A stretch of DNA of 49,631 bases from a virus, in IMG/VR virus record IMGVR_UViG_3300044634_000076, positions 1 to 49,631 of that record. One strand, written 5' to 3'. The translations under genes and the position numbers were made by a program. Positions within the stretch are counted from its first letter, which is position 1. Each line of letters opens with the position of its first letter. Positions 14,499-41,364 of the stretch are shown here, one piece after another. The notes beneath the pieces are model-generated. The model saw only the letters and a program-made list of their open reading frames with translations, was not told the DNA's origin and did not search any database.

Positions 14499-14753
14499 TT
14501 AGCACTTCCAAGCACGTAATGATTTGTTGATACGACTGTTAGGATCGTTTGCAGTCTTCGCACTGGTCAGCTTCTCTTTCATGCCTTCCATACGGGCACA
14601 GAATGAGTCACGTCGTGGGCCACCCTCAGGTTGAGGGGCCTTGAGTCCCGGCTTCCCGGGATTGGCTTTATTGTACGAGGCTCGCCCCTTGGCGTTCAAG
14701 CCCCCTTTTTCCGATTTACCTTCTTTGCGTGTCCAAGCTGGTGTTTTAGCCAT
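14499..14753 (-). CDS. Small basic protein resembling DUF6321, 84 aa
   Basis: The pattern is MAKTPAWTRKEGKSEKGGLN, AKGRASYN, then RRDSFCARMEGMK and INKSLRAWKC. I recall this as the uncharacterised DUF6321 family of phages; the name is from memory. Its ATG overlaps the stop of the 2083-residue ejection protein (TAATG at 14751-14755), so it is translated in tandem with it. This is the first of six consecutive very basic small proteins. Confidence 0.7.
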   Translation of the reverse strand: MAKTPAWTRKEGKSEKGGLNAKGRASYNKANPGKPGLKAPQPEGGPRRDSFCARMEGMKEKLTSAKTANDPNSRINKSLRAWKC

Positions 14754-17700: not shown

Positions 17701-20700
17701 CGGCGTCGAGTTCTTTATTGTCCTTCATCAGTGCTTTGAGCACATCTTGAACACGTTTAGCGTCAGGGCTCAATTCACCTTTAAAGTTAACGACGCGCTT
17801 AAGCGCCGCCTTCAATGCACGGACTTCTGGTGCATTAGGATTTTGATAAACATACCACTGCAGTGCACCATGCAACGACTCGTGCAATGTGACCGCCGCA
17901 GACGCGTCTCGTTGGATATAGACTGTATTGGTTTTTGGGTCATAGTAAGGTTTACCCTTAGATATGAACTCAAGATTTGGTGCGGTGTCGCTGTCGTACA
18001 AAGACTGAAATACACCCTTTGCGATTGTACGTTCAAACGGCGTGCCATGAGTCTGAATGTAATTCAGCAAACCAAGAATGCCAGTAGAAGATTCCCCCTT
18101 GCCAAACTTGGCATAACCCAAAGCGGCTTTTTCTAGCGGGGTTTGAGTCTCACCTGCGGCAGTAGATTCTTTAGAACCACGAATCGGTGTTTGCCGAACA
18201 AAAGCTGCGTCAGACTCGCCTTGGAACATATTGTCCTTGGCGGCTCTCCAACCTTGTGACAGCATGGTATCCATCTTCAGAAATGCCTGTGCTACACCAC
18301 CGTCACCCTCTTGGCCGAAGTCTTCGTTCATACCTTCATCAGTTGTCTGAGTATGCAACTTCTGTTGCACCATATCTTTGACAAGCTTGACAATAGCTTC
18401 AACATCTTTTGCGTTGCCGTTAACTGCTTTACCCAAACCAGCAAGGGCGGCACGAGTCTCTCTTAGTTGTTCTAGTGTTGTCTCAACGCGTTGGCCAGTT
18501 TTGGCCTTTATTTGTCCACGTTGTTGCGCAGGGGTTTGGCTAGCCAGTTTGGTAGGCTTGTAAATTGTTTCGCCGTTCTCGCCTTTAATTGCGCGTTCGG
18601 TAGGGATGCCGCGAAGCATATTGCCACCAGCATTACTAAACTTGTAATACGCTTTTGCAAACGCACGCACAGCGTCAGCAATCTGTTGTTCTCTGTCACT
18701 AATGCCTTCGACAGTCGCAGAAGGGTTCAGCAACGCGTCACGGATGTTTCGTAAGGCGCTAACAGTTAAAGATGTTTTGCCGGGTACGGCCTTCTTATCA
18801 ACGCCTTCTACACCAGCTTGCAACGGATTGTTTGTAACATTAGTCCGATTCGCAGTCTGAAGTGCCGCGGTCAAGCCCATTTCGTCTTGCTTTTTCTGTT
18901 CCGCGGTTTGTCGGTCAGCAACGCGATTAGCGGCTTGCTGCTCTTTGGCAGTCAAAGCCCCAGTAATTTTTCTACGTTCTGCAGACAACTGCATACCGGC
19001 ACTACGTAGAGCGCTTTCGCGGTCTTGGTAGTTAGCTATCTCTCGTGCACGACGGGTTCTGCCATCGTAGGTTTCCTGTGCCTTATTCCAAGCATTAGCT
19101 TGTTCTTGGCTAAGCGTTACCTCGGTATCGTTAATCTTTACGACTGATCCAACGGTGATGGGTGCTTTTTGTTTTTTCGTTTTTGTTTGCTGGGCTTGAG
19201 TGGTTTTAGTGCCATCTTGAATAACAGGAGTAGTTACGGGAGTAGTTACGGGCGTAGAAGAAACGCCCTCCGCGGCGGGCGCGGAGGGCAAAGGGGTGGC
19301 TTTAGCTTCACCACCCAAAGGAGCAACGGCAATAGGACGCTCTGAAAGTTGGCTTGTAGGCCCAGTGAGTGACTCTTGGGGGCCCGGTCTGTCCAAACGC
19401 ATATTACTGAACGGAGCGGAACGTGGTGGCACAAGGGATGTGCGAGCAATGGGTTGAACTTCTGCAGGCGTGATGGGTTGCATCACATCTGGGTTCATGA
19501 TTCGGTCAAAGTCTGTCTTTGTTCCAACACCTTGTTGGGCATCAAACATGGCTTGTACTGCGGTACCAAGTTGCATTGCTTGCGCAAGCGGAGCCTCTTG
19601 TTGGTTGGCTTCTGCCTCTAGATCGCTGACAAGGCCACGGGCTTGGTCGCCTACATCTTGAATGTTCAGCAACTGGTCGCCGCGCTTACCAACAAAGTTT
19701 TGCCAACTTTTACCAACTTCCTTAACGGCTTCTAGACCTTGTTCTTTGCGTGCTAGCAAATCTTGGTATTGCCCGCCGACGTCTTGCGCGGCCATGAACG
19801 AAGACAAACGTTTCGATGCATCGGCCTCAGACATTGGACGCCCAGCAGCCATCCGTTTGTCAAACTCAGCTTGCGTATCTACTTCAGAAAGTTTACGCCC
19901 ATCAACATCTGCCTGTGTTTGTGTCAGGTCTTTAGGTGCTTCTTCAAGAGATTTTAAGGCGGCGTTACGTTGTTCTTCAAGAGATAACTGCTCTGTAAAC
20001 CATGCACCAACGTTTGTCTCAGGAACATTTTGTCTGCGGGCTTCCTTCATCACAGCTTCAAACGCCTGTGCGCGGATTTCAGGAGGAGCGTCTTCGCCCA
20101 ACGCGGCCTTTAAAGATTCTGCTCGTCGAGCACGCGACGCATGACCACCCAGTGCAAATGGGCCAAGCAACATTGTCAGACCCGCACCGCCTAACGCTGA
20201 CTGCCGTGCAATCTCATAGGGGTTTTCGTCTCCTGCCGCGCCGTAGGCGCGTTCAACCGCGTATGTGCCTAAATCTTGAGCAACCTCAGTACTGGGCTGC
20301 ACTAGCATGTTGATACCCATGCTTTTTGCAAAAGGCTTCAGGACACTGGTATCAGTCATCCTTGCCGCAACGCCAGCCGTAGTGCGTTCACCCATGCCCA
20401 ACAATGGGGACAATCCTTTAATAGCGCGACCGCCAACGAATGTAGCGGCACCTTCACCAACACCTTGAATTAGACCAACACGGCGAGCAGCCTCTGTTGC
20501 TGCTTGAGGATCACCAGTTTGCTCTAATACTTTGTCGTAAGTTCCTTGCGCAGACGATGTGCCGAACAATAACGCCGCCGCCGCGGGGGCAACGACTTGC
20601 CCACCGGGAACAAAAGCTAAAGGTAAGGTAGCTGCAACAGGAGCCAACCCACGAGCACCTGTAGTAAGTGCCTCGCTGACAAGCCCCCGACTACGGTTAT

Positions 20701-21004
20701 CGGGAATATATGCAGGAGCACGGGCTTCTGCCGCTTGCGACATTTCACGACCATACGCGGGAGCAACGCCAGTGTATTCAAGCCCTTGGCCGACCATCTT
20801 GGGCAGATCGACTACTGCACCGCCCATAGCCTGACGACCCATCTCCGCTAGCGTACCACGAGGTTTAAAGCCTAAGTAGCTTGCCGTAGACTCAAAACTC
20901 TTGCCAACGCGCCCTGCGTAGTCTCGGATTAACTCGTCGTCAGACAGGTCACGCATGGAGGACGGCACTGCCGCCCGCAAGTCTTCAAGGTTATAAATCG
21001 GCAT
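14753..21004 (-). CDS. Giant internal virion (ejection) protein with HExxH motif, polyvalent type
   Basis: This is a 2083-residue protein. Ala/Gly-rich hydrophobic segments lie near residues 115-150 and 265-290. A long disordered, Gln/Thr/Pro-rich middle spans about 520-700. A zinc-metallopeptidase motif HESLH occurs near residue 1041 (17870-17884) after YIQRDASAAVT. The C-terminal region, including RQSFLPFVSWTYAIAPV, resembles a 'large polyvalent protein-associated' domain (LPD38 by memory). By position and size order it corresponds to T7 gp16, the protein ejected into the cell with the DNA. The peptidase could open the envelope or attack host proteins; this is inference. The start follows GGAG closely. 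Confidence 0.8.
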   Translation of the reverse strand: MPIYNLEDLRAAVPSSMRDLSDDELIRDYAGRVGKSFESTASYLGFKPRGTLAEMGRQAMGGAVVDLPKMVGQGLEYTGVAPAYGREMSQAAEARAPAYIPDNRSRGLVSEALTTGARGLAPVAATLPLAFVPGGQVVAPAAAALLFGTSSAQGTYDKVLEQTGDPQAATEAARRVGLIQGVGEGAATFVGGRAIKGLSPLLGMGERTTAGVAARMTDTSVLKPFAKSMGINMLVQPSTEVAQDLGTYAVERAYGAAGDENPYEIARQSALGGAGLTMLLGPFALGGHASRARRAESLKAALGEDAPPEIRAQAFEAVMKEARRQNVPETNVGAWFTEQLSLEEQRNAALKSLEEAPKDLTQTQADVDGRKLSEVDTQAEFDKRMAAGRPMSEADASKRLSSFMAAQDVGGQYQDLLARKEQGLEAVKEVGKSWQNFVGKRGDQLLNIQDVGDQARGLVSDLEAEANQQEAPLAQAMQLGTAVQAMFDAQQGVGTKTDFDRIMNPDVMQPITPAEVQPIARTSLVPPRSAPFSNMRLDRPGPQESLTGPTSQLSERPIAVAPLGGEAKATPLPSAPAAEGVSSTPVTTPVTTPVIQDGTKTTQAQQTKTKKQKAPITVGSVVKINDTEVTLSQEQANAWNKAQETYDGRTRRAREIANYQDRESALRSAGMQLSAERRKITGALTAKEQQAANRVADRQTAEQKKQDEMGLTAALQTANRTNVTNNPLQAGVEGVDKKAVPGKTSLTVSALRNIRDALLNPSATVEGISDREQQIADAVRAFAKAYYKFSNAGGNMLRGIPTERAIKGENGETIYKPTKLASQTPAQQRGQIKAKTGQRVETTLEQLRETRAALAGLGKAVNGNAKDVEAIVKLVKDMVQQKLHTQTTDEGMNEDFGQEGDGGVAQAFLKMDTMLSQGWRAAKDNMFQGESDAAFVRQTPIRGSKESTAAGETQTPLEKAALGYAKFGKGESSTGILGLLNYIQTHGTPFERTIAKGVFQSLYDSDTAPNLEFISKGKPYYDPKTNTVYIQRDASAAVTLHESLHGALQWYVYQNPNAPEVRALKAALKRVVNFKGELSPDAKRVQDVLKALMKDNKELDAVLELVSYSNTLNDFRRALEAMDSTEAPKSFYDAAKNVWQTILTTVQRLVGVRPSVAADVIGNTFKLLEAAGAAKKGEATGNILEAAVESTGTPQGKVNAQDYVVYNKKIAPAALSTKLFFDLVGWQRGAQKVGDLSSKLADKIRKDFPTAERYITYINSRFGVNDFTSKLMEKYKVDKNTGYQRMEQLANFVESRSAEEAKAIFDYLDGDKKALDKFPDVAKVKEIADSIEKSMAMYISELPAKDRAYFENTKFSESLLFAGNTNQVASHTFGARKLSEIIGLQHRFEETIEGFQHWMGVDKNGDVDITGPFYQVFGPNIKDPAGPQVPQGYMSIKGYETTGNPVGFTVDPSRQWRISGKKGEGYKFTSNMTAQQAILEKKVTELANAMRNTMAALANNYASRNFSKAASTLGYEDGKPTELSVSFDSLEAVKKIFGRAPNPNQVLSVSKDEAKTPQIADLYRNSNTWVLIPNVEAYGALAGKYLPGPVWSAMTDMADRKPLVSFRAYNASMRWFKKSKTVYNPGTHITNIASNVTLAMMHDIPVSTIASAAKLFTKYELNAKSLTPSELAIMSQFMNSGAMLGDYSSAEVKEAIYKAWNENLAQPTDTSLMQRLKMFTGYEKSKAQMGVALAAKAGNKLDSIASELYAAEDNVFRLAAFMKKVGELQERSGEKTPTTENFNDAGTFARKAFLDYDIDSKAVRIARQSFLPFVSWTYAIAPVMGRIALHQPWKIANVLAAYYLIDVAMASAAGDDDEETRKRGPKEIRERMFGIGPYMHIRIPFMGDENNPVYYRLGDYVPMASAAKGLPNGFMGQSWIPGAITPSGPIVSAIAGLVVGVNPYTGKSLNQPTDTEWQKFKNAAKFAYDIVTPPAISSTQLKAVNDILDEKTGITGAPVSNLAIARTFGLKMYDYDVIESEAVQDIVSKRVEREFKDAMRKAKREEDRRGYPDYEALDKQLEDLQIRMEKELDKARGGTGELD

Positions 21005-22727: not shown

Positions 22728-23678
22728 TTAAACCTCCACCATTTCGATGCCTAAACCGGCGTAGTTAACAGCGTCGTAGCCGTCAGGCATTGTGACAACC
22801 ATTTCAGGGTAACGAGCTTTTACATCGTCAGCCATCACACCGAGGTAGCGTTTGCCAGAACCGCCAATGTATTCAAACTCATAAAGCGGCAACATCGTGC
22901 GCTCGTCTCGGCCAACTTCCTCAATGTTCTCTTTAAGGCGACGATCAGATTTTGAAAGGCCGTAAGTTGTACCTGCACCTACCAATGCGCCAATAACCTG
23001 ACCTTCAGCATTAAGACCAGTATTAAACTGGCTAGTCTGGTTACTAAGAATATTGCCGTAGGTTTGTCCTGATTGCTGCATACCTTGCTGGTACTGTGAA
23101 CCGGGAGCCATAGATGTATTGACGCCAGCAGAACCTGCAGCATTTGCCCCTTGGTAGGCAGCGGTAGAAGCGCCAGCTAGATTACGGCCAAGACCTGTAA
23201 CGTCAAGACGACGAGCAAATCCGATCTGTTCAGCTTGGTTACGAGCACCTGTCATAGCATTGGCACGATTAGCAGCAAGGCCAAGATTAGATTGGTTAGC
23301 CATTGACATTGCCCGACCAGAGGCAGGGTTTACCCCCATAGAAGCTTGGGCTCGTTGGGAGGCTGCTTGAGTTGTACCAAAGGCTCGGCCAGCGGCTGCG
23401 GCTGCATCGCGAGCTAAAGTTTCTCGGTAGTTCTCGGTATTAAATCGTTCAGCGTCTCGAACAAGCCCCTGCTCTAGCGGCCTAAACGTTTGCTGTTGGT
23501 AGTCGTAATAGTCCTGACCTTGTCGCATCTGTTGCTGCTGAGCGGCCATTTGTTGAGCGGCTACTTGACGAGCAAGTGGAGCCATCTCTGCGTATTGTTG
23601 TTTAGCAAAGTCTAACTGCTCACGCCCAATCTGTTGCATTGGGGTGTAGTCTGGTGCTGGTTGCGATTTTCCGCCCAT
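22728..23678 (-). CDS. Internal virion protein with C-terminal S74 chaperone domain, 316 aa
   Basis: The N-terminal 240 residues are Gln/Ala/Gly-rich (ejection-protein-like, about as hydrophilic as T7 gp14). The C-terminal 73 residues, from SDRRLKENIEEV (Ser244) through LGVMADDV to NYAGL, match the intramolecular chaperone/peptidase S74 domain, which cleaves itself off before its serine after trimer folding. S74 normally ends trimeric fibres, so its presence here is unusual. A start 7 codons upstream is open, but AAGGAG sits 5 bases before the ATG at 23678. The trailing coiled coil of typical S74 domains is absent. Confidence 0.75.
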   Translation of the reverse strand: MGGKSQPAPDYTPMQQIGREQLDFAKQQYAEMAPLARQVAAQQMAAQQQQMRQGQDYYDYQQQTFRPLEQGLVRDAERFNTENYRETLARDAAAAAGRAFGTTQAASQRAQASMGVNPASGRAMSMANQSNLGLAANRANAMTGARNQAEQIGFARRLDVTGLGRNLAGASTAAYQGANAAGSAGVNTSMAPGSQYQQGMQQSGQTYGNILSNQTSQFNTGLNAEGQVIGALVGAGTTYGLSKSDRRLKENIEEVGRDERTMLPLYEFEYIGGSGKRYLGVMADDVKARYPEMVVTMPDGYDAVNYAGLGIEMVEV

Positions 23679-23680
23679 AT

Positions 23681-24097
23681 TTACTCCTTGCGCAGCCATC
23701 GACAGTTGTCGGGCCGCATTACCAAAATCTGCATATCAGCGCCGGGTGCGCCGTCTTTCATTACAAACTCTTCCTCAAACCCAAGATGCTTGTCAAACGC
23801 AATAATCGAGGGTTCATTTGTGGGTACCATGCCGGTCAATCGTTTCAATTTACAGTGGTTAAACGCGTAGTCACAGACGTGATGGAACAACGGCACAAGA
23901 AGTTTTGTGTGTTGAGCAACAGCAATGTGACATGTAGCATTTGATCCATTGTAGTTATTGATGACTACTCCTGCAATAACATCTTCTCCACGAATAACGC
24001 CCAAGGCATAAAAAGAACCCCAACTGGAGTCTTGCCCTGTCTGTTCGGCTACCCAGTTCCCTATACGTTCTTTCTGGTCAAAGACGAGTTCTGCCAT
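23681..24097 (-). CDS. GNAT-family N-acetyltransferase
   Basis: This 138-residue protein has the GNAT layout: a beta-rich centre with IAGVVINNYNG, the acetyl-CoA region in VPLFHHVCDYAFNH, and the C-terminal NEPSIIAFDKHLGFEEEF, which is the classic 'N..a..lyek.GF' element. The substrate is unknown. It lies between tail and ejection genes and is seen there in other phages, possibly modifying host or virion proteins. I chose the ATG at 24097 (MAELVF); no strong ribosome site is visible. It ends 2 bases before the next gene. Confidence 0.8.
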   Translation of the reverse strand: MAELVFDQKERIGNWVAEQTGQDSSWGSFYALGVIRGEDVIAGVVINNYNGSNATCHIAVAQHTKLLVPLFHHVCDYAFNHCKLKRLTGMVPTNEPSIIAFDKHLGFEEEFVMKDGAPGADMQILVMRPDNCRWLRKE

Positions 24098-24111: not shown

Positions 24112-24540
24112 TTATTGTGGCGGAGTTGGCCATACCACATTGACAGGATATCCCGATTGTGTTGGAACATCGCGCAAAGCTTGGCGGTAAGTCTGCCACT
24201 GGGCGTACAAAGTTTGACCAAGGCGGGTAGGCGCGGACGCGGTGTCAGTCCAGTCAGATTCTTGTAACTTTTGTAGCCGAACAACGCCAATCTTGTAAAT
24301 CAAGTATGTTGTATCAGGCTCCCACGACTTGGTCGTGTAGTTGAATGTGTAGCCGTCGGCGGGAGGCGTACCCTTTTCAGCCGGAGTATCCGCTGCAATA
24401 TTATGATATTGCGTAACAATGCTAACCTCGCCGTAGTACACAGAGCACCCGTCAGGAATGTCATATTCTGTTAAGTCACTTTCGCAGGTACCAGAAACAA
24501 TGTACTGACCACTAGGTTCATAGCAAGCATAAGATTTCAT
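24112..24540 (-). CDS. Tail (fibre) assembly chaperone-like protein, 142 aa
   Basis: The C-terminal half has the signature of phage tail assembly chaperones: LQESDWTDTASAP, WQTYRQALRDVPTQSGYP and a final NVVWPTPPQ. The N-terminal half is beta-rich with a GYTFNY segment. Such proteins are encoded just after the tail protein they help to fold, as here (4-base overlap with the 1250-residue tail gene). The family call is firm, while the exact client is inferred from position. Confidence 0.75.
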   Translation of the reverse strand: MKSYACYEPSGQYIVSGTCESDLTEYDIPDGCSVYYGEVSIVTQYHNIAADTPAEKGTPPADGYTFNYTTKSWEPDTTYLIYKIGVVRLQKLQESDWTDTASAPTRLGQTLYAQWQTYRQALRDVPTQSGYPVNVVWPTPPQ

Positions 24541-27500
24541 CGTTTACTTCCGATCACAATGATTGTGCAGTACTCAGCTTTCCAGCTATCGCCATACGGA
24601 TTGGTAACAATAGCCTCGACTTTATAAGAACCAGTTGCCGGAATTACGTATGTTCCCGTAAAAGTAGCAGTGACTTTATCGTTGGTAGGCCCCATAGTCT
24701 GAATCAATCTGCCAGTAGACGCCCCAGCAAATGTAGCTACCAAAGTGTTTGAGGAATTTAATACGTTTAAAATAACCTCAATATCTCCAGCGCCAGCATC
24801 TATTTTTAATGCAGTAAAGAACGCGCTAATCGTAGTATCTTCTGGAAATGAAGTTAACGCTGTTTTTATACTTACGCTTGTACTTGAAGTAAAAACTTGA
24901 TCGACTGCGCCTGTAACAGTCACGGGAATTGTGACGGCATTAATTTTAATGTTACCGGTTGCTACAACGTCGCCATTAAGGGTTAATTGTGTACCGTTGT
25001 AGTTAATGTTAGTCGTTGAGTTGCCTAACGCAAAAGTGCCGCTAGGGTTAATCTTCGCGCCTGATCCAGTCATCGTTGTGCCAGATAGGGCAGGGGTAGA
25101 GCCAACCGTTAACGTGCCTGCAAAAGATGCAGCGCCTGTAGAACCGTTTAGGACAAAGGTAGCTTCATCATCACTGTTGTAAGCAACCAAACCATTTGCA
25201 GTCAACCCAATGCCGTAACCGCTGGTACGGACACCCGAAGAATTCCAGTTAAGCGTGCCTACAGCCAAGCCGCCCGAACCTGCTAATACGTTTCTTGCGT
25301 TAGAATTTAATTTTGTAGACAGTCCGGCTACCGCATCAGCGGCATCGGCTGCGGCAGCATCAGCAGCAGACAAAGCATCGGCGGCATCACTTGCAGCAGA
25401 ACTTGCATTGGCTAGAGCTGTACTTGCATTACTTACTACAGTACTTGCAGCAGTACCTGAAACGGTACCTGTTACATTGCCAGAAAATGCTCCGCTACCT
25501 GCATTAAGAATTGTGTTACCGTCGGCGTCGCGAATAGATAAACCATTTGAATTAATCTGTGCAGCAGTCAACTGACCCCGAATAACAGCAGCACCAAATT
25601 CAGCCGTACCATCTCCACGAATTATCCAGCCTTGCGAGCCAGCAACAAAATTTGTAGAGTAAATATCTGTGCCAACACTGATAGCACCAGTCAAAAGTTT
25701 AGCCGCGCTTAAGTCAACAATTTTTGCGTTATCAATAGCAGCATCAGCAATCTGAGCATTCTGGATCGTGGCATTTAAAACATAAGCCGCATCAATATAC
25801 ACACCGGATGGGACACTGACACCACCAATGGAAGTAGGCACTGCCTGCACTGCAAACGGAACTCGGCTAGCTACCTGCCACGTAACTGTGCCGTCTAAAA
25901 TCTTAGTGCCGATAGCGCCAACCGTTAACGCCCCTGTACCGGTCGTACCACCAACTTTACAAACAAGAGTTTTACTTCCCTCGGTAGATACTCGAGCAAT
26001 AGCGCCAACAGCGTATGTTGTAGAAACAGCTCTAAGGGCAATAGATGTCTCTGGCGTTGTGACCGCAAAGCGATTTACGTTCGCAATGAACTGTGAATTA
26101 CCGACTGCATCGCTGTAAATACCGTAGCCTGCCACGTTGCCGTTAACGTCCAGCTTGATGGTGTATTGGGCTTGAAGTCCATCGTTAAGCGTCTTTTGCG
26201 CAGTAAACCGTTGCTCTAAACTAGCTGACGCAGTTCCATCGCTGACACTAACTTGTTTAACAGCAGTTGCCAAGGGTAAGCCGACTGTCCATGTGCCGCC
26301 TGCGGCTTCGCAAGTTGCTTTAGTTGTGTCGTCAGTTGCAACGCCGCCAATCGCGCAGTAACCAATCTTTGTGGATTCAACAGTCGTAACTCGAGCATCT
26401 ACTGCAGTAACGGAACCTGTGATGACTGCATCTGGAGAATAGACCCAAGCTGTGCCAGACCAGAGATACAACTTATTACTATCATTTGTGTCGTACCAAA
26501 CATCACCATTTACCAAGGCAATGTTGCCTGCAGTTTGTGGATCAACACCACGGATGGTTGGCGCGTCAGCTTGACGAAATACTTTAGACTGAATGCTTGC
26601 ATACGCACGTAGGAACGTACCGCTCTGGGCAATAGCGCTCTCAGTATCAGTCTGCGTTAGATAGTCGTTTGTCAGTGTTGCAGTCAACGAAGTCACAGAG
26701 CCCGTAATAACTCCGTCAGGCGAGTACACCCATGCAGTGCCAGACCACTGGTACAACTTGTTCTGGTCATCTAAATCAATCCAAACGTCTCCAAGTTGCA
26801 ATGGAATATCAGCACTGGTGGATGCATCCACACCGCGCTTTGTAGGTGCAGAAACTTGTCTAAATGTTCGGGACGCAGATACATCCGTGTACGCACGAAG
26901 AACGGTTTTGCTATTGGCAATGGCTGTGTTAACTGTAGACGTAGTCGAGTAATCGTTAATCAGCGTAGCCCGCGTTGCCACAAGACCAGTCACTGGGTCA
27001 TTCACTGACGTTTCAAGCGTAGTGACATCGGAAGCAATCGCTGCATCAGCGGTAGCCCGTGCAGTCTGCTCGTTAACGATTAACGCAAAGTTATCTGTAA
27101 TATCCGTAAGGGTAATGTCAACCCAAGCCGTGCCGTTCCATTGGTATTGATTGTTGCGAGCTACCGCATAGTCTTCATCAAAGTAAGGGATGGCATAACT
27201 GGGTTTGATATCCACCCAAATGTCGTTTAACGCAGGAGTCGCAGGAGCGGTAGTAGTCCGGTAAATTGTATTTTTGCTAGACGCCGTTGCAGAAACAGAC
27301 GAAATTGAAGACGCTAAACCAGAGTCAGCCGTTGCCCGTGCAGTCTTTTCTGAGAAGATAAGGCCAGTAGTTACACTGGTAATGTCTGTGCCGGTATAAG
27401 TCCCGCGCATTTGCGTTGCAAGAGTTTCTCTTGCAGTAACTTCCGCGCCCAAATTAGTTGTAATCGTAGCTATGTCTGCGGTGTGAGCAGCAACAATATC

Positions 27501-28289
27501 CGCAAGAGACGAGTAGTCTCCGATCTTTAACCAATACGTTGCGTTGGTCGGAAGGTTACCAGTTGTAGAACTTAGAGCTTTATACAAACCGCCGTTGTAC
27601 TTAACAATAAAGTCTGTTGCGTAAGTAGTCCCGTTGTCGTACGTTGGGTACGTATTGATCGTGTCAATCTGACCTTGAATCTGAGCTAACTGATTGGGGA
27701 TAGTGCCGGGTGTTCCAGCAGGGCCATCAATTAAGTTAATACGGCTATTAAGCGACGTAGCAAGTTGTGATGAAGTTATGCTGCCAGCCAGAGTGGTTAG
27801 CAAATAAGATACAGCAGCGCCGGTTGTAGCTAACGTTCCGTTGATACTGTTATAGGGGCCAATAACGTCTAGCGTATTAACAAACCGAACCCAGTAGTAA
27901 CGAGAGACACTAGGCCCCACAGAGTCAACATAGATCGCACCGGGAGAAAGACCAATCAAAACAGCCGTGCCAATAGCGTCTGTGGAGTTACCCCAAATCT
28001 CAGCATGCGAGTGGCCGAAGTACTGCGGGTTATCCCACGAAATAATAATGTTCTGAATAGCAGCAGATGCGGTTACGTTTGTTGGCGCAGGCGAAGTTCC
28101 AATTAACCTAACGCCGGGTTTAACAACAGTGCCACCGTTTCCCGGATCAACAACACCACCTGCAATTAACTCCCTAGCAGTTACAAAACGGTTATCGCCA
28201 TCGCTCGTAATAAGCTCCCGAACACGGTCAATAAACGTGCGTAGGTCGCGGGGGATATCCGACGTTACTGATGGAAGTTTATTAGACAC
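24537..28289 (-). CDS. Large tail protein, J-like/fibre, 1250 aa
   Basis: From the N-terminus there is a short leader, a fibronectin-type III-like domain (about 60-140), several coiled/beta modules with TARATAD repeats, two near-identical ~60-residue copies ending SGTAWVYSPD, then a region resembling the DUF1983/host-specificity J C-terminal part (YTIKLDVNGNVAGYG, about 730-760). Residues after 980 are Ala/Asp-rich coiled coil, then a beta-sandwich-like end. It probably forms a receptor-contacting fibre or spike. The start is GTG with GAGGAG well placed, overlapping the upstream stop by 8 bases. There is no S74 domain, so it probably depends on the chaperone encoded next. Confidence 0.8.
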   Translation of the reverse strand: MSNKLPSVTSDIPRDLRTFIDRVRELITSDGDNRFVTARELIAGGVVDPGNGGTVVKPGVRLIGTSPAPTNVTASAAIQNIIISWDNPQYFGHSHAEIWGNSTDAIGTAVLIGLSPGAIYVDSVGPSVSRYYWVRFVNTLDVIGPYNSINGTLATTGAAVSYLLTTLAGSITSSQLATSLNSRINLIDGPAGTPGTIPNQLAQIQGQIDTINTYPTYDNGTTYATDFIVKYNGGLYKALSSTTGNLPTNATYWLKIGDYSSLADIVAAHTADIATITTNLGAEVTARETLATQMRGTYTGTDITSVTTGLIFSEKTARATADSGLASSISSVSATASSKNTIYRTTTAPATPALNDIWVDIKPSYAIPYFDEDYAVARNNQYQWNGTAWVDITLTDITDNFALIVNEQTARATADAAIASDVTTLETSVNDPVTGLVATRATLINDYSTTSTVNTAIANSKTVLRAYTDVSASRTFRQVSAPTKRGVDASTSADIPLQLGDVWIDLDDQNKLYQWSGTAWVYSPDGVITGSVTSLTATLTNDYLTQTDTESAIAQSGTFLRAYASIQSKVFRQADAPTIRGVDPQTAGNIALVNGDVWYDTNDSNKLYLWSGTAWVYSPDAVITGSVTAVDARVTTVESTKIGYCAIGGVATDDTTKATCEAAGGTWTVGLPLATAVKQVSVSDGTASASLEQRFTAQKTLNDGLQAQYTIKLDVNGNVAGYGIYSDAVGNSQFIANVNRFAVTTPETSIALRAVSTTYAVGAIARVSTEGSKTLVCKVGGTTGTGALTVGAIGTKILDGTVTWQVASRVPFAVQAVPTSIGGVSVPSGVYIDAAYVLNATIQNAQIADAAIDNAKIVDLSAAKLLTGAISVGTDIYSTNFVAGSQGWIIRGDGTAEFGAAVIRGQLTAAQINSNGLSIRDADGNTILNAGSGAFSGNVTGTVSGTAASTVVSNASTALANASSAASDAADALSAADAAAADAADAVAGLSTKLNSNARNVLAGSGGLAVGTLNWNSSGVRTSGYGIGLTANGLVAYNSDDEATFVLNGSTGAASFAGTLTVGSTPALSGTTMTGSGAKINPSGTFALGNSTTNINYNGTQLTLNGDVVATGNIKINAVTIPVTVTGAVDQVFTSSTSVSIKTALTSFPEDTTISAFFTALKIDAGAGDIEVILNVLNSSNTLVATFAGASTGRLIQTMGPTNDKVTATFTGTYVIPATGSYKVEAIVTNPYGDSWKAEYCTIIVIGSKR
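26400..26579 (-). repeat. Second copy of a ~60-residue module in the large tail protein
   Basis: This unit starts FRQADAPTIRGVD and ends PDAVITGSVT. It matches the copy at 26685-26864 with a period of 285 bases (95 residues). About 70 percent of residues look identical by eye. Confidence 0.75.
26685..26864 (-). repeat. First copy of the ~60-residue module in the large tail protein
   Basis: This unit starts FRQVSAPTKRGVD and ends PDGVITGSVT. A third, more diverged version (YRTTTAPATPALNDIWVDI) lies near 27260. Internal duplication of fibre modules lengthens the tail protein. Confidence 0.75.
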
Positions 28290-35117: not shown

Positions 35118-38102
35118 TTAAAGATTAGCGGCATCCAAACGTGCCTTGAGTGATTCAATGATTATTTGTTGTTCTTGGATGCACTTCATCAAAGCGTATT
35201 GCAAATCGGTTTGATAAATTGACAAGCGCATTTTAGGTTCTGCATCTTTGCTTGCCCAATTGCTCTCCACAACCAACTCAGGTGCAACCGCTTGAACATC
35301 TTGAGCAACCACGCCTAATGTCAAACCACCATCTTCTTCCATGTTTTGGTCAATGTAGTTGAATGTCTGAACAGGTATTGCACAAATCTTGTTAAGGTAA
35401 GAACCGGCAGGTGCAAAGTTTGTTTTCTCTCTGCGGTCTGACAGGTTTGAGTCATTGGCTTGATAGTTAGCAATACCACCATTTGAATAAACTCTAAAAC
35501 GAGTTGCAGTAGTGTCTAAAGCACTGTAAAAATAATTTGTGCCATTGTTTGGTGAGGCTCCCCAAAAATAACACTGAACACCAAATGGACTAGCATTGTT
35601 ATTAAACACAACAAGTGTGTCGTCAGAAGTTGACGTTTCTACAGAATGCCAAGCACCCGCAGTATTAAAATAACTTGTTGCAGTTCCTAAAAAGTGAGCA
35701 AAACCACTAGAGGATATTCTGGCTTTCTCATTGCCACCAATGAAAAACCTATGGTCAGCGGCATAAACACTATTTGTGCAATAAACTGCTGTGCTTCTGT
35801 TGTAGTTAAGTGTTTGATTTTCGTTTGATGCAACACCGGGGTAAAATTGAAAAACTTCAGCACCAGCATTTGAAATTGTTAGTTTTGCACTATTGGATGT
35901 TGTAGTCCCCACCATCAAATTCCCACTGGCATCCAGAGTCATGTAAGTGCTAAACGACCCAATAGCACCACCAGCAGATGGGGTTCCAGCGGCTAATTGC
36001 CATGTAAACGCACCATTGCTTTGGTTAAAGTTGGTTGCGGGATTGGCGGTAATCCATCTGTAAGTTGCAGTCTCATCAAGATACAAGTTTTGCGATAAAA
36101 CAGCATTGGTATTTGCGGAAGACCAAAGCGATAGGCCGTTTCCAATTTGGAATGCTTTTACGTTTGAATACCAAGCACTAGGAGTAACTCCCAAGCCCAA
36201 ATTGCCTGCGTTATTAAGCCTCAACGCTTCAGCCGAACCAATGCCAAAACCAAAATAACCACCAGTATTTGTAGCCGCAGTAGATGTAACGCCAATGAAG
36301 CCTTGCATTTGGCTTACTGATGCCGAGCCATTCCAATACTTTGACAAGAAAGCAATAGTAGGCGAATTTTTAGTAGTAGCACCCGCCGTAGCGTTAACTG
36401 CGTTGATGGTCACATTTGCATCTGCGCCAATACCAAACTGAGAACCATTGGTAGGATGAACTGCTTCAAATGGCGTTGTATCAGAAACTATGCGAAATCC
36501 ATTTGTACCAGTTGGTACAGTCAAAATGAGGCGTGGGTTGCTTCCATAACTAAGCGTGTCGCCTGACGCGTTATAAACCTCAAACTTTTGGGTTGGCGTA
36601 AGGCCAATGCCAAAATTGCCTGTTGTTGTAATTATGGCTTTAGCGGTTGCTGAATTATTAGTAAAAAACTGAATACCACCACCAGAGTCGGCATAAACCG
36701 CCGCATCTGTGCTTGTGTCTCCTTTTATCCAACCACTTGTACCAAATACTGCTTTTTGTACGCCATTGACGTAAGCACTAAACGCACCGCCACCAGTAGT
36801 GCCAGTATTATCTGAAGCAATTGCACCATAAGCACCACTTGTTTTGTAGTAAATACCAATTTGTTCAGCACTACGCACATCTAACTTATAAGCAGGGTTT
36901 GTAGGCCCTATTCCTAAGAATCCACCATTTCCAAGAGTCATCACTTGAGTAAAGGAAATAGGATTTCCTATTGTGCCTGACCCTGCGGTGTACCAAGCGT
37001 GGTAGCCGTCTTGCTCGTACATAGTTGCAGTACCAGAGCCAATATATTTATAACCACCGTTGTAGTAAGTGTTAGCGTTCATACGCGCATTTGCAACGCC
37101 CGATGACCATGCCGCAAAACCCGAACTTACTTGAAGCGAAGTAAATCCACTCCAAGCACTTGGACTAACTCCTACACCTACATTTCCACCTTGAGAATTT
37201 AATATTAAATCTTTAAACGCACCGCTACCTAAATAACTTGTTTCAATAACTGCTTTGGTATCATCGTGATAAAACTGCAACATATTTTGTGTTGTTGCAT
37301 TGCTTGAAAGAATACGGATGCCGTTAGTTCCAGTTGTTTGGTTGACTTGTAATCTAACAGTAGGATTATTTGTACCAATACCTACATTGATTCCACTAGC
37401 CGTATAAAGGCTTGAGGAGTTGAGGGTTAGTTGTGTTGTGCCGCTAATCCCAAATGTTTGAGTAAGTGCATCTATAAAAATGTTCTTGTATGCACTCGTG
37501 GCTCGGTTGTACGATAGGATTTTTGCTGTCGGAGCCGTGAAGGAAAACTCAAGCCCTTCGCCCGTACCAAGGGTAGAGGTTATCCCCACTCCTACTCGCA
37601 ACATGATATTGGAATCGAGGTTATTGAAAAACGATATGCCATTGCCAGCACTCAGCGTAGTAAACGCACCAGTAGATGCCGTAGTAGCACCCACAGTCAT
37701 GCCATTGATAGTTCCACCTGTAAGAGTAGCACCGCTAGAAGCAAGTGTGTTTAGCGTAGCTGTAGAGGATGCACCAAGGGTTGTGAAGTTACCCGCAGCA
37801 GGGGTCACATTACCAATAATGCCTTGGAATGATGTTCCTGTAGCTGCGCCCAAAACTGGTGTCACCAATGTCGGAGAAGTCGCAAAGACTAATGAGCCTG
37901 TACCGGTCTCGTCAGTGATAGCCGCCAAGAGTTGAGCAGATGTTGCAACTAACGTGTTGCTTGTCAGGTTAATAGTCTTGTTGGTAAGCGTAGCTGATGT
38001 CGCGGCTTCTAGTTTGTCCGTGTTCAAATTACTGAAGTTGGTATCAACCTCTGTGTTAGTCAGGGGCGTGCCCTTAACACTGCGTAGAACAATGGTGCTC
38101 AT
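35118..38102 (-). CDS. Tail fibre with C-terminal S74 intramolecular chaperone, 994 aa
   Basis: The N-terminus MSTIVLRSVKGTPLTNTEVD plus LTNKTINLTSNTL is typical of fibres whose shaft is built from repeated beta modules; here several GNLGLGVTPSAW-type units recur. The C-terminal 107 residues, from SDRREKTNF (Ser888) through LGVVAQDVQ to a coiled coil, form an S74 chaperone domain that trimerises the fibre and then cuts itself off before Ser888. It likely binds host surface sugars. A GGAGA ribosome site precedes the start. The ORF is much longer than needed for a simple spike, suggesting module accretion. Confidence 0.85.
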   Translation of the reverse strand: MSTIVLRSVKGTPLTNTEVDTNFSNLNTDKLEAATSATLTNKTINLTSNTLVATSAQLLAAITDETGTGSLVFATSPTLVTPVLGAATGTSFQGIIGNVTPAAGNFTTLGASSTATLNTLASSGATLTGGTINGMTVGATTASTGAFTTLSAGNGISFFNNLDSNIMLRVGVGITSTLGTGEGLEFSFTAPTAKILSYNRATSAYKNIFIDALTQTFGISGTTQLTLNSSSLYTASGINVGIGTNNPTVRLQVNQTTGTNGIRILSSNATTQNMLQFYHDDTKAVIETSYLGSGAFKDLILNSQGGNVGVGVSPSAWSGFTSLQVSSGFAAWSSGVANARMNANTYYNGGYKYIGSGTATMYEQDGYHAWYTAGSGTIGNPISFTQVMTLGNGGFLGIGPTNPAYKLDVRSAEQIGIYYKTSGAYGAIASDNTGTTGGGAFSAYVNGVQKAVFGTSGWIKGDTSTDAAVYADSGGGIQFFTNNSATAKAIITTTGNFGIGLTPTQKFEVYNASGDTLSYGSNPRLILTVPTGTNGFRIVSDTTPFEAVHPTNGSQFGIGADANVTINAVNATAGATTKNSPTIAFLSKYWNGSASVSQMQGFIGVTSTAATNTGGYFGFGIGSAEALRLNNAGNLGLGVTPSAWYSNVKAFQIGNGLSLWSSANTNAVLSQNLYLDETATYRWITANPATNFNQSNGAFTWQLAAGTPSAGGAIGSFSTYMTLDASGNLMVGTTTSNSAKLTISNAGAEVFQFYPGVASNENQTLNYNRSTAVYCTNSVYAADHRFFIGGNEKARISSSGFAHFLGTATSYFNTAGAWHSVETSTSDDTLVVFNNNASPFGVQCYFWGASPNNGTNYFYSALDTTATRFRVYSNGGIANYQANDSNLSDRREKTNFAPAGSYLNKICAIPVQTFNYIDQNMEEDGGLTLGVVAQDVQAVAPELVVESNWASKDAEPKMRLSIYQTDLQYALMKCIQEQQIIIESLKARLDAANL

Positions 38103-38137: not shown

Positions 38138-38578
38138 TTAGCTAACAGTGATTGTCCAAGTAATGCTCATGGAGTCATCTGCGCCTTTATTGACAACCGC
38201 AAATTCTGTACGGCAAAGCAATGTGCCAGCGGAAGAAGCGTTAAGAATACCTGCCTCAACTACCGCGCCAGTACCAGTACCAGCACCAAAAGACGCAACG
38301 TAAGTCACAATTGCTCCAGCGGATGCACTTGAAGTCAACGACACTCGAGCCAATTCAGTTTGCAAAGTAGTATCGCCAACTGCAGGACTACCAGTATCGC
38401 CAGAACCAATGGCCATGTGGCTCATTGCTGTAGGTGTGCCAACCATGCGGGCAGCGATAAATGTCTTACCTGTTGTTACAACAATGTTGGGGACGGTTTT
38501 ATCTTCTTTGATTGTGCCATCGGGGCCAAACAGTTTGATGTTTAGTTTACCTGTAGCTTTAATGGTTTCTTGAATCAT
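38138..38578 (-). CDS. Virion or fibre-associated protein, 146 aa
   Basis: It is an all-beta protein opening MIQETIKATGKLNIKLFGPD. It includes GSGDTGSPAVGDTTLQTELA and a final immunoglobulin-like strand set ending ITWTITVS. I have seen this type between adaptor and fibre genes in other phages, where it is taken as structural. A TAGGAG ribosome site is present. Function is inferred from place. Confidence 0.6.
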   Translation of the reverse strand: MIQETIKATGKLNIKLFGPDGTIKEDKTVPNIVVTTGKTFIAARMVGTPTAMSHMAIGSGDTGSPAVGDTTLQTELARVSLTSSASAGAIVTYVASFGAGTGTGAVVEAGILNASSAGTLLCRTEFAVVNKGADDSMSITWTITVS

Positions 38579-38587
38579 CGTAATCTC

Positions 38588-39715
38588 CTATGCAAATGTG
38601 CGGTACTCACCGACGTAATCAGCTTCAAAATATGTCAAGTCACAGTATCCTTGAGAGATCACCGAACCAGACTCCGAAAAAGCCAGAGTGTCTGCTACCA
38701 CTTTCGATGGCGTCAAAGCTATGGCATCCGCCGTCCCGGTTGTATCCGATAACGTTTTAGAGAACGCTACAGAAACAACGTCAACAGACGTTAGTGTATC
38801 CGCAAGTGCTTTACTAAAGCTAGTAAATGTTGCACTACTTGTGCTAAATGCGTCGGATAAAGCTTTCGCAACAGTCAGGGCTTTTTCGTCTGAGACACCT
38901 AAAGTGTCTGTCAAAACCTTGGCTATGTCAAAAAAGCGGGCGTCTGTAATGGCGTTTGTATCGGTAAGATTTTTATCAATACCGCGGACAAGCCCTTCTA
39001 TAGTCGCAAAAGAATCAGACAAGACTTTATCAACGCTAAAGGTAACGTTGTCTTGGAAAGCCTGTGCATCTGAGAGCACTTTAGAAACTTGCAACGCCGT
39101 TGCGTCCGTTAGCCCAAAGCTATCCGTCAAAGGTTTAGTCGAACTACGCGCCATTGCTTCCGCAACAAACGCAACATTGTTGATGTATTTCTGAAAAGCG
39201 TAAGTTGACCCATCCCCCACATCAGCGCCGTCGTTTAGACCAAACGCATCTGTCAGAACTTTATTGATCGCAAAAACGGAGTCTTCCGTAACAGTAGCCG
39301 TATCCCCTAGATTTTTACCAGCTTCTTTTGCAACAGCAGAAACAGGCGTAACAGAGTCACTCAGCGTTCGAAGCGTTGTTTTGACAATGCTAATAACTTC
39401 GGTAACAGTAACAGAATTTGCTAGTACTTTAGTAATAGCGCGGTCAATATCATCTGTCGTTACAACGGTTTCAGATTTAACCAGCCCAACAGATCGAATA
39501 ACCTGTTCGGGGACTGTAACAATTTCGCGAATCTTCTTGTTCTGACCTAACTCGTCAAGGGCTGCAGAAGCCGCCAAAACGGCGTAAGACAGCGTAAACC
39601 CAGCCGAGACTGCCGAGATACTAGCTTGCGCTACCGCGGACGTTGTAGAGGCCGTTAAAAGCTCATAAGCAACTGCAGCGGAAACTCCATTCGCAGAGAT
39701 GCTTGAGGTCGCCAT
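38588..39715 (-). CDS. Repeat-built virion protein with 18-residue repeats, 375 aa
   Basis: After an Ala/Ser-rich N-terminal region and an irregular segment, the last ~190 residues are 18-residue tandem repeats of the form K-x-L-(S/T)-D-(S/T), then a hydrophobic residue at about 9, D at 11 and hydrophobics at 15 and 17. Earlier degenerate copies include KNLGDTATVTEDSVFAIN. The protein ends in a short aromatic cap (YFEADYVGEYRTFA). Regular short repeats of this sort usually make a solenoid or a fibre shaft. It lies among adaptor and fibre genes, so a virion fibre is likely. I do not recognise a named family. Confidence 0.65.
   Translation of the reverse strand: MATSSISANGVSAAVAYELLTASTTSAVAQASISAVSAGFTLSYAVLAASAALDELGQNKKIREIVTVPEQVIRSVGLVKSETVVTTDDIDRAITKVLANSVTVTEVISIVKTTLRTLSDSVTPVSAVAKEAGKNLGDTATVTEDSVFAINKVLTDAFGLNDGADVGDGSTYAFQKYINNVAFVAEAMARSSTKPLTDSFGLTDATALQVSKVLSDAQAFQDNVTFSVDKVLSDSFATIEGLVRGIDKNLTDTNAITDARFFDIAKVLTDTLGVSDEKALTVAKALSDAFSTSSATFTSFSKALADTLTSVDVVSVAFSKTLSDTTGTADAIALTPSKVVADTLAFSESGSVISQGYCDLTYFEADYVGEYRTFA
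38651..39136 (-). repeat. Nine tandem 54-bp (18-residue) coding repeats
   Basis: Starting at the Lys codon 39134-39136, nine units follow without gaps. Examples are KPLTDSFGLTDATALQVS, KVLSDAQAFQDNVTFSVD and KVLTDTLGVSDEKALTVA. The last unit ends at the Gln codon 38651-38653. The DNA copies are strongly diverged, so the array is old. Confidence 0.85.
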
Positions 39716-40047
39716 TAGAAATCCTGACGAAGTTTAAATTTCAACAGTTCGTAAACTGTTTGGATTGTTGTATCTGCAAAAGTGATTTGAATTTCACCTT
39801 CGTAGTCTCCGGCAGCGCCGTTAAGGGATGTCGGATCGTCTGACCAGTAAAATACTACAACACCGCCAGCGCCATTGGTAACTGACCCCGTAAGCGTAGA
39901 TTGCAGAGTAGTTGCACCAGCCGCACGGAATTTAAGCAAAACAGTAGCGCCAGTTATGTTGATAGCCTCGCCAGTTGTCGAGTCTGTTAGCGTAGTTACC
40001 AAATTAGGGCGAGTGTCCCCTTGGACAAGTTTAATTTTTTCAGCCAT
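39715..40047 (-). CDS. BppU-like N-terminal domain protein, 110 aa
   Basis: The sequence MAEKIKLVQGDTRPNLVTTL, with TGEAINITGATVLLKFR and GDYEGEIQITF, follows the pattern of the N-terminal domain of baseplate upper proteins (BppU) of siphophages, a small beta domain that attaches appendages to the virion. Here it probably links fibres to the tail. I chose the ATG at 40047 with GGAG 9 bases upstream; a TTG further up is open. Confidence 0.65.
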   Translation of the reverse strand: MAEKIKLVQGDTRPNLVTTLTDSTTGEAINITGATVLLKFRAAGATTLQSTLTGSVTNGAGGVVVFYWSDDPTSLNGAAGDYEGEIQITFADTTIQTVYELLKFKLRQDF

Positions 40048-40723
40048 GGTTTGGAGCTCCAGATGTACTTGGGGCAATAGAAGTTGTACCTCTTAGCTCA
40101 GTGCTAAGCGCCGTTGTGTAGAGGGCATAGTGCGCCTGAGCACGACTTGCATTTGCTGAAGACTCCGCGTCTTTGCTGAACGCACGAAACAAAATGTAGT
40201 CCGCAAGCGCATTAGCAAAAACATCAGCAACACTTATATTACCACTCACTGCCGTGTAAACTGCGTTGTCAGCAGGCTCGGTAATGTCAGTTGGGTACGC
40301 TGAATAGACTGTAGAGAGCTGAGCCAACGTAGTCGCTGGCGGATACACATAAAAAACCCTAGGATCAATGGGGTCGTACATGTAGTTTGAGATGTTAACG
40401 CTAGCAGTTGCAACGTGCCACGAGGGGCTTATTGAATCAAGCATTTGGCGATTAACTTTGCGAACCACTTGTTTATCGCTTGTCGTAGCTACATTGCGCA
40501 CAATGTCTATGAGCTTAGATGCCGCAGCAGGCAGGGTTTGCCTTGTACCCGATACACAAGTAAGCGTAGCGGTCGTAGCAGTGGCATCAGGGCGGTAGAC
40601 AGTAATGTCTCGTTGGCCGTCGTTAAGGTAGCGTACAAGCTCGTTTGTTGCCCAGCGAACAGCGGACGCATCCTGCAAAGTTCCTACGACCCGAAGTAAA
40701 ACTGATTGTGCGGAAGTAGTCAT
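40040..40723 (-). CDS. Adaptor-region protein resembling DUF6682, 227 aa
   Basis: An N-terminal helical hairpin (WATNELVRYLNDGQRDITVY) precedes a beta sandwich, and a C-terminal helix has YILFRAFSKDAESSANASRA, recalling the DUF6682 family of phage adaptor-like proteins. In structure such proteins form the ring between portal and tail. It lies next to a second adaptor-like gene. The family name is from memory. Confidence 0.65.
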   Translation of the reverse strand: MTTSAQSVLLRVVGTLQDASAVRWATNELVRYLNDGQRDITVYRPDATATTATLTCVSGTRQTLPAAASKLIDIVRNVATTSDKQVVRKVNRQMLDSISPSWHVATASVNISNYMYDPIDPRVFYVYPPATTLAQLSTVYSAYPTDITEPADNAVYTAVSGNISVADVFANALADYILFRAFSKDAESSANASRAQAHYALYTTALSTELRGTTSIAPSTSGAPNHG

Positions 40724-40731
40724 TTATAGCC

Positions 40732-41364
40732 TTACACAAATGGGCGTGAGCGAACGCGCATAGAACCACGAACATGGCCGTAGTTCCCCTCTATACGAGA
40801 GTTTGTAATGTGACGAGCCGTTTCCATCTGCACCTGCGAAGCGCGGGCGTAGTTAGTAAAAGGCTGATCTGGAAGAAGCATCGCCCTGTAGATTGCTCCC
40901 GACACAACGGGCTCGATCCAACGGTTATACAAGTCGTCTTCGAGCTGCGTAGCTGTCATAGCTGGGCGCAGCGCAACTGTCGTTACCAGTCTATAAACAT
41001 CATCTGGGGTTGGCAAAAGCCGAAGAACAAACTGTGAGTCTGTACGGTCGACATAAAAAGAACTAGGGATGCCAGAATCTACGGGTAAGTACCTAGGAAA
41101 ACTTTCGGCCATGTCGCCGACAAGAGGAATGCCGTCAGCAGTAACACCAAGAACACGACTAATAATTAGTTGCGCAGATGGGCTATCTAAGTCGTATTCA
41201 CCAATGTCGGCAACAGTAGAAAATGGATCGAGGTTCTGCCTGAGAACCTGCGATTTTTCACAAAACTCAATAGCGGATGTCAGCAACATTTGATCCACCA
41301 CCGGCTCGGGACAACCGGGCAAGTGGGGCAGAATGCGCGAATAAAAAGCACTAAGAGCTTTCAT
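40732..41364 (-). CDS. Tail adaptor-like protein (tail tubular A type), 210 aa
   Basis: The helical N-terminus, LPGCPEPVVDQMLLTSAIEF with CEKSQV, is typical of podovirus adaptors (T7 gp11-like), which bind under the portal. A beta insert (about 60-135) and long C-terminal helices with RASQVQMETARH follow. It is transcribed just before the DUF6682-like gene, with an 8-base gap. Assignment is by pattern and position. Confidence 0.6.
   Translation of the reverse strand: MKALSAFYSRILPHLPGCPEPVVDQMLLTSAIEFCEKSQVLRQNLDPFSTVADIGEYDLDSPSAQLIISRVLGVTADGIPLVGDMAESFPRYLPVDSGIPSSFYVDRTDSQFVLRLLPTPDDVYRLVTTVALRPAMTATQLEDDLYNRWIEPVVSGAIYRAMLLPDQPFTNYARASQVQMETARHITNSRIEGNYGHVRGSMRVRSRPFV

Follow-up and report, generated by a model that had tools for sequence, protein, structure and literature searches.

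The window, by which we mean the whole 49,631-nucleotide stretch of viral DNA analysed here (IMG/VR record IMGVR_UViG_3300044634_000076), carries on its minus strand a run of genes of virion type (Table 1), one of which encodes a protein built largely from 18-residue repeats. The first-pass annotation of this DNA was right to place a genuine 18-residue repeat in a protein of the virion region, and the boundaries that it gave for nine contiguous units are exact; the degenerate upstream copies that it described also hold, as two units that score above their null. The sequence K-x-L-(S/T)-D-(S/T) that it proposed for the start of each unit stands for its fixed positions, with lysine at position 1 and aspartate at position 5 in all nine units and leucine at position 3 in eight, and is too strict at positions 4 and 6, which are mostly serine or threonine and hold alanine in two units each. 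Position 11 is aspartate or glutamate in eight of the nine.

Table 1. Features of the repeat gene and its neighbours in the window
Feature	Coordinates	Strand	Basis
Tail fibre, 994 aa, C-terminal Peptidase_S74 domain	35118..38102	-	Pfam and PHROG matches; neighbourhood
All-beta protein, 146 aa, proposed bead	38138..38578	-	Next to repeat gene in 53/53; AF2; structural matches
Repeat protein, 375 aa, candidate string, or rope, in a bead-chain fibre	38588..39715	-	ORF; repeat tests; neighbourhood
C-terminal motif GYCDLTYFEADYVGEYRTFA, aa 356-375, best-conserved part of the repeat protein	38591..38650	-	Alignments A1 and A2
Nine gap-free 18-residue units, aa 194-355	38651..39136	-	Unit scoring; lag-18 test
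Two extra 18-residue units, aa 134-169	39209..39316	-	Scores 11.3 and 15.0; 95% null 6.9
Non-repeat N-terminal region, aa 1-60, D54 and G57 conserved	39536..39715	-	Alignment
Protein of 110-120 aa (phrog_1084), proposed collar or anchor piece	39715..40077	-	Upstream in 55/55; stop overlaps repeat start by one base
Head-tail structural protein (phrog_399)	40040..40723	-	PHROG; by eye alone, of one kind with BcepMigl gp54
Head-tail structural protein (phrog_437)	40732..41364	-	PHROG; by eye alone, of one kind with BcepMigl gp55

Self-similarity at lag 18, scored with BLOSUM62 over aa 181-350, is 1.20, against -0.50 +/- 0.16 and a maximum of 0.14 in 5000 shuffles, and among 34 ORFs in the window the repeat ORF alone has a z score above 3 at this lag (z 10.6). 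As a second control, one of 280 other ORFs of related loci reached z(18) of at least 4 (L036:8315-9263, z 8.2). The two upstream units (aa 134-151 and aa 152-169) are in phase with each other and offset by 12 residues from the main array; the intervening aa 170-193 form no unit and extend a segment rich in glycine and aspartate. A special segment, FGLNDGADVGDGSTYAFQKYINNVAF (aa 158-183, about 39167-39244, minus strand), sits between repeat blocks, and segments like it occur once or twice per protein in many relatives (twice in L067, for example), as if they were a second unit type or a hinge. The repeat units have diverged to a mean amino-acid identity of 31% and a mean DNA identity of 44%, and Tandem Repeats Finder, run on the window, returned no row at the array. 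Thus the 18-residue pattern is old and maintained at the protein level, and with DNA identity between units of at most 57% it does not stem from recent duplication.

Elsewhere in the window, the single row that Tandem Repeats Finder did return (12-nt period, 19227-19257) falls inside a 2083-aa ORF at 14753-21004 (minus strand) that matches neither PHROG (at E <= 0.01) nor Pfam (at E <= 0.001). The 994-aa fibre is not alone in bearing a Peptidase_S74 chaperone domain, which is also present (E 1.7e-7) in the protein encoded at 22728-23699 (minus strand), and a 1250-aa protein at 24537-28289 (minus strand) combines tail-fibre PHROG matches with Pfam Phage_Tail_Tip, an odd companion to podophage-like head-tail proteins.

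Viral contigs were scanned twice for relatives of the repeat protein, giving 37 and 79 largely overlapping loci; 109 of 112 loci carry the C-terminal motif pattern and reduce to 57 distinct proteins (L081, L105 and L109 were left out). Two of the 57 are cut at contig ends, and the complete ones span 200 to 548 residues. Over lags of 8 to 60, 51 of the 57 have 18 as their best lag, and if multiples of 18 are counted the figure rises to 55. Counting repeats in close relatives, as the first-pass annotation had proposed, reveals that copy number varies. L007 and L015, for example, are 94% identical outside one gap of 72 residues (4 x 18). Among internal gaps of at least 6 residues in pairs at >= 50% identity, pairs that are not independent of one another, 71 of 221 are multiples of 18 (72 is the commonest, with 53, and 18 itself accounts for 17); many of the remainder lie in the non-repeat N-terminus, and others take values such as 19, 60 and 65. 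Of 29 representatives, 13 have their N- and C-terminal anchors 161, 233 or 305 residues apart, distances that differ by 72, and the other 16 have other spans. Taken together, these block gaps and anchor spans indicate a copy number that changes often by four units at a time, but not exclusively so.

The gene sits in a fixed module. A homolog of the 146-aa protein lies directly downstream in all 53 distinct homologs with >= 450 nt of downstream sequence, and a homolog of 39715-40077 directly upstream in all 55 with >= 400 nt of upstream sequence, the one-base overlap between this upstream gene and the repeat gene recurring in most of them. The aligned upstream homologs are about 110 aa long and begin MAEKIK, so the annotated TTG start of 39715-40077 is probably too early and an internal ATG the true start; no convincing solved or Pfam relative was found for this phrog_1084 family. 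Farther downstream, the N-terminus of the 994-aa S74 fibre, VLRSxKGxPLTNxEVDxNF, recurs at 49 of the 57 loci, the other eight having little downstream sequence.

Sequence searches with the repeat protein gave no direct match in Pfam, PDB sequences or cultured phages. The first-pass annotation knew of no named fibre repeat of this kind, and we likewise could assign it to no named family of repeats and found no relative of solved structure; searches of the openly licensed literature brought up neither an 18-residue repeat in phages nor such a rope protein. A possible family link is to phrog_384 (E 0.0062), matched through the C-terminal part alone; at E <= 0.1, 16 of 28 relatives match this virion structural family (best 3e-7) and 19 of 28 match phrog_12240 (best 2.5e-11), a family of no assigned function. 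A match to Prochlorococcus phage P-SSM7 (E about 2) was dropped, as no such repeat could be seen there by eye. Conservation is highest at the C-terminus, where Y357 to F363, Y367, G369 and F374 are invariant in all 28 rows of alignment A2, and we regard this motif as probably a terminal docking peptide. The N-terminal region (aa 1-60) is a candidate virion anchor.

The AF2 model of the 146-aa protein (26 sequences; pLDDT 84.1, pTM 0.81) is all-beta with one short helix. Foldseek returned a single match below E 0.001 among the matches listed, a domain of the HFTV1 hub (9h4p_BD, E 6e-6), and 8jou_a was not among the best 50. Upon re-alignment of the Foldseek candidates, the model scored Z 11.6 with 9h4p_BD, 10.9 with both A511 gp105 (6hhk_B) and the phi812 arm segment (9fko_A), about 10 with other phi812 chains, 6.0 with the Bas63 connector and 4.4 with the tail fibre of phage 7-7-1. 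The superposition on 6hhk_B covers 112 residues at 2.9 angstrom and places the model in the gp105 fold; that on GP4 fibre I (8jou_a) covers 101 residues at 3.1 angstrom with Z 7.0, a score that alone is not convincing by the tool's own note. Sequence ties the protein only weakly to GP4 gp80: with the A3 profile, 8jou_a is found at no better than E 0.4, and the protein falls below the cut-off of Pfam PF23140 (GP4 gp80 fibre I; 15.5 against 27 bits, E 0.022), a family reached at E <= 0.1 by six of nine relatives, the best of them at 1.6e-4. PF25691 (BW3TFN), which A511 gp105 itself matches at 4.7e-69, is absent from the protein's Pfam matches at E <= 1. GP4 8JOU_g is described as fibril-forming and dimeric (PMC13243795). 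As modelled, then, the 146-aa protein resembles fold types that have been reported as beads on a string: closely those of the phi812 arm segment and A511 gp105, and less so that of GP4 fibre I.

Searches from the bead side extend the pairing to cultured phages. Seven records were found with the bead of the window and 33 with a siphophage bead, and the genes upstream of the bead were examined in Simon, phiA008, CF418P1, EBPR siphovirus 1 and ART from the former search and in SE2, 83-24, BcepGomr, phiAxp-1, Axy14 and JWX from the latter, with the array of BUCT-ZZ01 added as a twelfth protein (N-terminal domains trimmed by eye; lags 8-30). Similar repeat genes adjoin the bead in both podophages and siphophages. 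The best lag is 18 in six of the 12 (phiA008, CF418P1, EBPR1, Axy14, BUCT-ZZ01 and, weakly, ART with z 1.5), 20 in three (Simon, SE2 and JWX) and another value in three (83-24, BcepGomr and phiAxp-1). Pooling all 12 gives z 13.3 for lag 18 and 4.7 for lag 20; of the 11 upstream genes from cultured phages for which a period was computed, five do not have 18 among their two best lags. Most of these upstream proteins end in a motif like Y-F-A-E-D/S-Y-V-G, which phiA008 lacks; beside the bead of CV-1-33, inspection by eye shows no evident gene of this repeat type. In the siphophages the repeat array is C-terminal to a tail-protein domain, and in the Synechococcus myophage BUCT-ZZ01 (L040:1705-3528) near-perfect 18-residue repeats, FTKPRSDTQGLSDDKDYY, are fused to a Baseplate_wedge match, the bead gene lying far from the repeat gene in the record. 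Thus the repeat array seems to be fused to different anchors in different phages.

The repeats themselves point to an extended conformation. Across 30 representatives, mean z is +3.71 at even lags (multiples of 18 excluded) and -5.51 at odd lags, and this preference argues for an extended two-faced strand and not an alpha-helix; periods of 18, 20 and 22 all preserve the register of such a strand. Hydrophobicity has no power at period 2, since K and D lie on the same face as the hydrophobic residues. At the same time, the AF2 monomer of the repeat protein (16 sequences) failed, with a pLDDT of 34.7 and low-confidence helices in place of any strands or solenoid. A string that takes up its fold only when bound to beads should give such a poor single-chain model, which may also arise for other reasons.

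Overall, we believe that the repeat protein is probably the string of a bead-on-a-string virion fibre, one that would thread along the beads encoded by its neighbour, and the conserved bead gene next door is itself what suggests a string in need of a partner. Our best reading is of a string that works like those of A511 and GP4, a statement about how it works and not about membership of either family. The string would be anchored to the virion by its N-terminus, in this case probably via the phrog_1084 protein at the head-tail collar. The 18-residue units would be extended strands, each reaching about 60 angstrom at full stretch, and the conserved face of each (K1, L3, D5, hydrophobic residues at 7 and 9, D11 and hydrophobic residues at 15 and 17) would dock one bead subunit or dimer. 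The C-terminal YCDLTYFEADYVGEYRTF peptide would then cap the chain or dock a distal part, supposing that this end is the distal one, and the unit count would determine how many beads the fibre carries and hence how long it is, so that the string would act as a ruler.

The strongest competitor, though an unlikely one, is that the repeat builds a fibre shaft by itself, for instance as a homotrimeric beta-structure, which the 146-aa protein would only cap or join. Strand-like alternation and an exact period would fit such a shaft too, an interdigitated trimer would defeat a monomer prediction, and the 30 representatives show a clear hexad sub-period (pooled z 17.6 at lag 6 and 10.7 at lag 12). 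Nonetheless, the two-residue variants in period (20 in several cultured relatives) and the 12-residue phase shifts are awkward for a continuous shaft, the short C-terminal motif contains no obvious trimerisation domain, and the strict one-to-one pairing with the bead gene would be left unexplained. The same hexad signal could speak for a monomeric beta-solenoid, since a turn of the left-handed beta-helix comprises 3 x 6 = 18 residues with a hexad sub-period. The self-standing solenoid that the first-pass annotation had offered nevertheless seems to us very improbable: K1 and D5, each present in 9/9 units, share a strand face with L3 and the hydrophobic positions, so that every odd-position phase puts an invariant K1 or D5 in the core, and the low-confidence monomer contains no strands, in a fold that AF2 usually recognises. 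The disordered appearance of that monomer would also suit a spacer or tether whose periodicity records duplication history without docking, but the invariance of these two residues and the period kept across 55 of the 57 distinct homologs leave this idea with a slender chance. Least probable of all is an amphipathic alpha-helix or coiled coil, with 18 residues making five turns, for although hydrophobicity has power at period 3.6 and AF2 drew helices at very low confidence, the pooled z scores of the 30 representatives are negative at lags 7, 11 and 15 (-5.7, -5.2 and -10.1), the composition is rich in S, T, V and D, and a period of 3.6 is also the fifth harmonic of 18.

If the repeat protein is indeed a string that docks beads, its interest lies in the fact that bead-chain fibres of phages are flexible and usually poorly resolved, with the string the least understood part. 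With a recognisable repeat next to a fixed partner gene, annotators could pick out both string and bead in phages that have not been cultured, and the idea of a molecular ruler becomes directly testable, by counting units against beads. A wider proposal, which we make tentatively and regard as rather doubtful in its full extent, is that all three tail types of phage share a repeat-coded string made of even-length strand units (18, 20 or 22 residues), each docking one bead of the gp80/gp105 fold, with the unit number as length ruler and the far end fused or bound to a siphophage tail protein, a myophage baseplate wedge, a podophage collar or a polysaccharide-lyase-like payload. Were this true, such a string would supply the one that is missing from GP4-like and LSH1-like modules.

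Among known bead-chain systems, A-1(L) has bead-chain fibres too, five of them at its neck, but its beads are trimers of gp81 joined head to tail, without a string protein in the structure as described in the part of the report cited here (PMC10966104). For Milano, the authors state, in the portion of their account drawn on here, that what serves as the string is unclear, and gp125 and gp126 have no 18-residue period. In LSH1, three genes co-occur (gp34-gp35-gp36), of which gp35 matches 8JOU_g and is dimeric (PMC13243795). The likeness to the window lies in a partner that is poorly predicted and possibly repetitive; it differs in that a lyase-like domain and the repeat-like part make up one protein, and the working model of the authors, as set out in the portion cited, runs from gp36 through a gp35 fibril to a gp34 payload, with no string (PMC13243795). 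The same authors ask whether the unpredictable sequence beside the bead module hides a repetitive motif (PMC13243795). The repeat protein of Alishewanella phage Slicko01 (WGH49683; L138:10881-17101), which we take to be the gp34 relative named in that report, may provide an answer: about 780 of its 1843 residues follow a 20-residue period (z 12.9, and 14.3 at lag 40), and after its gene come a 107-aa protein and then a 121-aa protein with a weak Gp80 match (E 0.0036), the module lying at 102880-109100. A duplicated segment precedes the 20-residue array in this protein. Genes for 667-, 138- and 463-aa proteins in the first 50 kb of Slicko01 had also been considered as its bead module and were rejected.

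GP4 and A511 offer the closest parallels. In fibre I of podophage GP4 (PDB 8JOU), Zheng et al. 2023 reportedly describe a rope protein of elongated form that connects five dimers of gp80. The window resembles it in having a small beta bead of related fold, at the Z of 7.0 to 8jou_a, encoded after head-tail adaptor genes; the BcepMigl proteins gp54 and gp55, for their part, adjoin a true Gp80 (E 9.1e-44). A repeat is likewise present beside gp80 in GP4-like phages, though a weak one of about 20-22 residues against 18 in the window: the gene after gp80 gives a pooled z of 7.6 at lag 20 over four related proteins. The gene order is bead then rope in BcepMigl, JC1, Itty13 and PBC5 and rope then bead in the window, the rope sequences of the two groups are not alignable, and no solved chain matched the candidate GP4-type rope genes. 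The gp105/BW3TFN assembly of A511 comprises three dimers only, and A511 gp104 has no 18-residue periodicity, unlike the repeat protein of the window. Yet the bead of the window is by its modelled structure nearer to gp105 (Z 10.9), the string gene gp104 lies directly upstream of the bead gene gp105 just as in the window, and the fusion of array and Baseplate_wedge match in BUCT-ZZ01 is what the role of the A511 string would suggest. The BW3 wedge protein, which threads such beads, is described as an extended chain that runs across bead dimers (PMC10811340), and it is this principle that we propose also for the repeat protein of the window.
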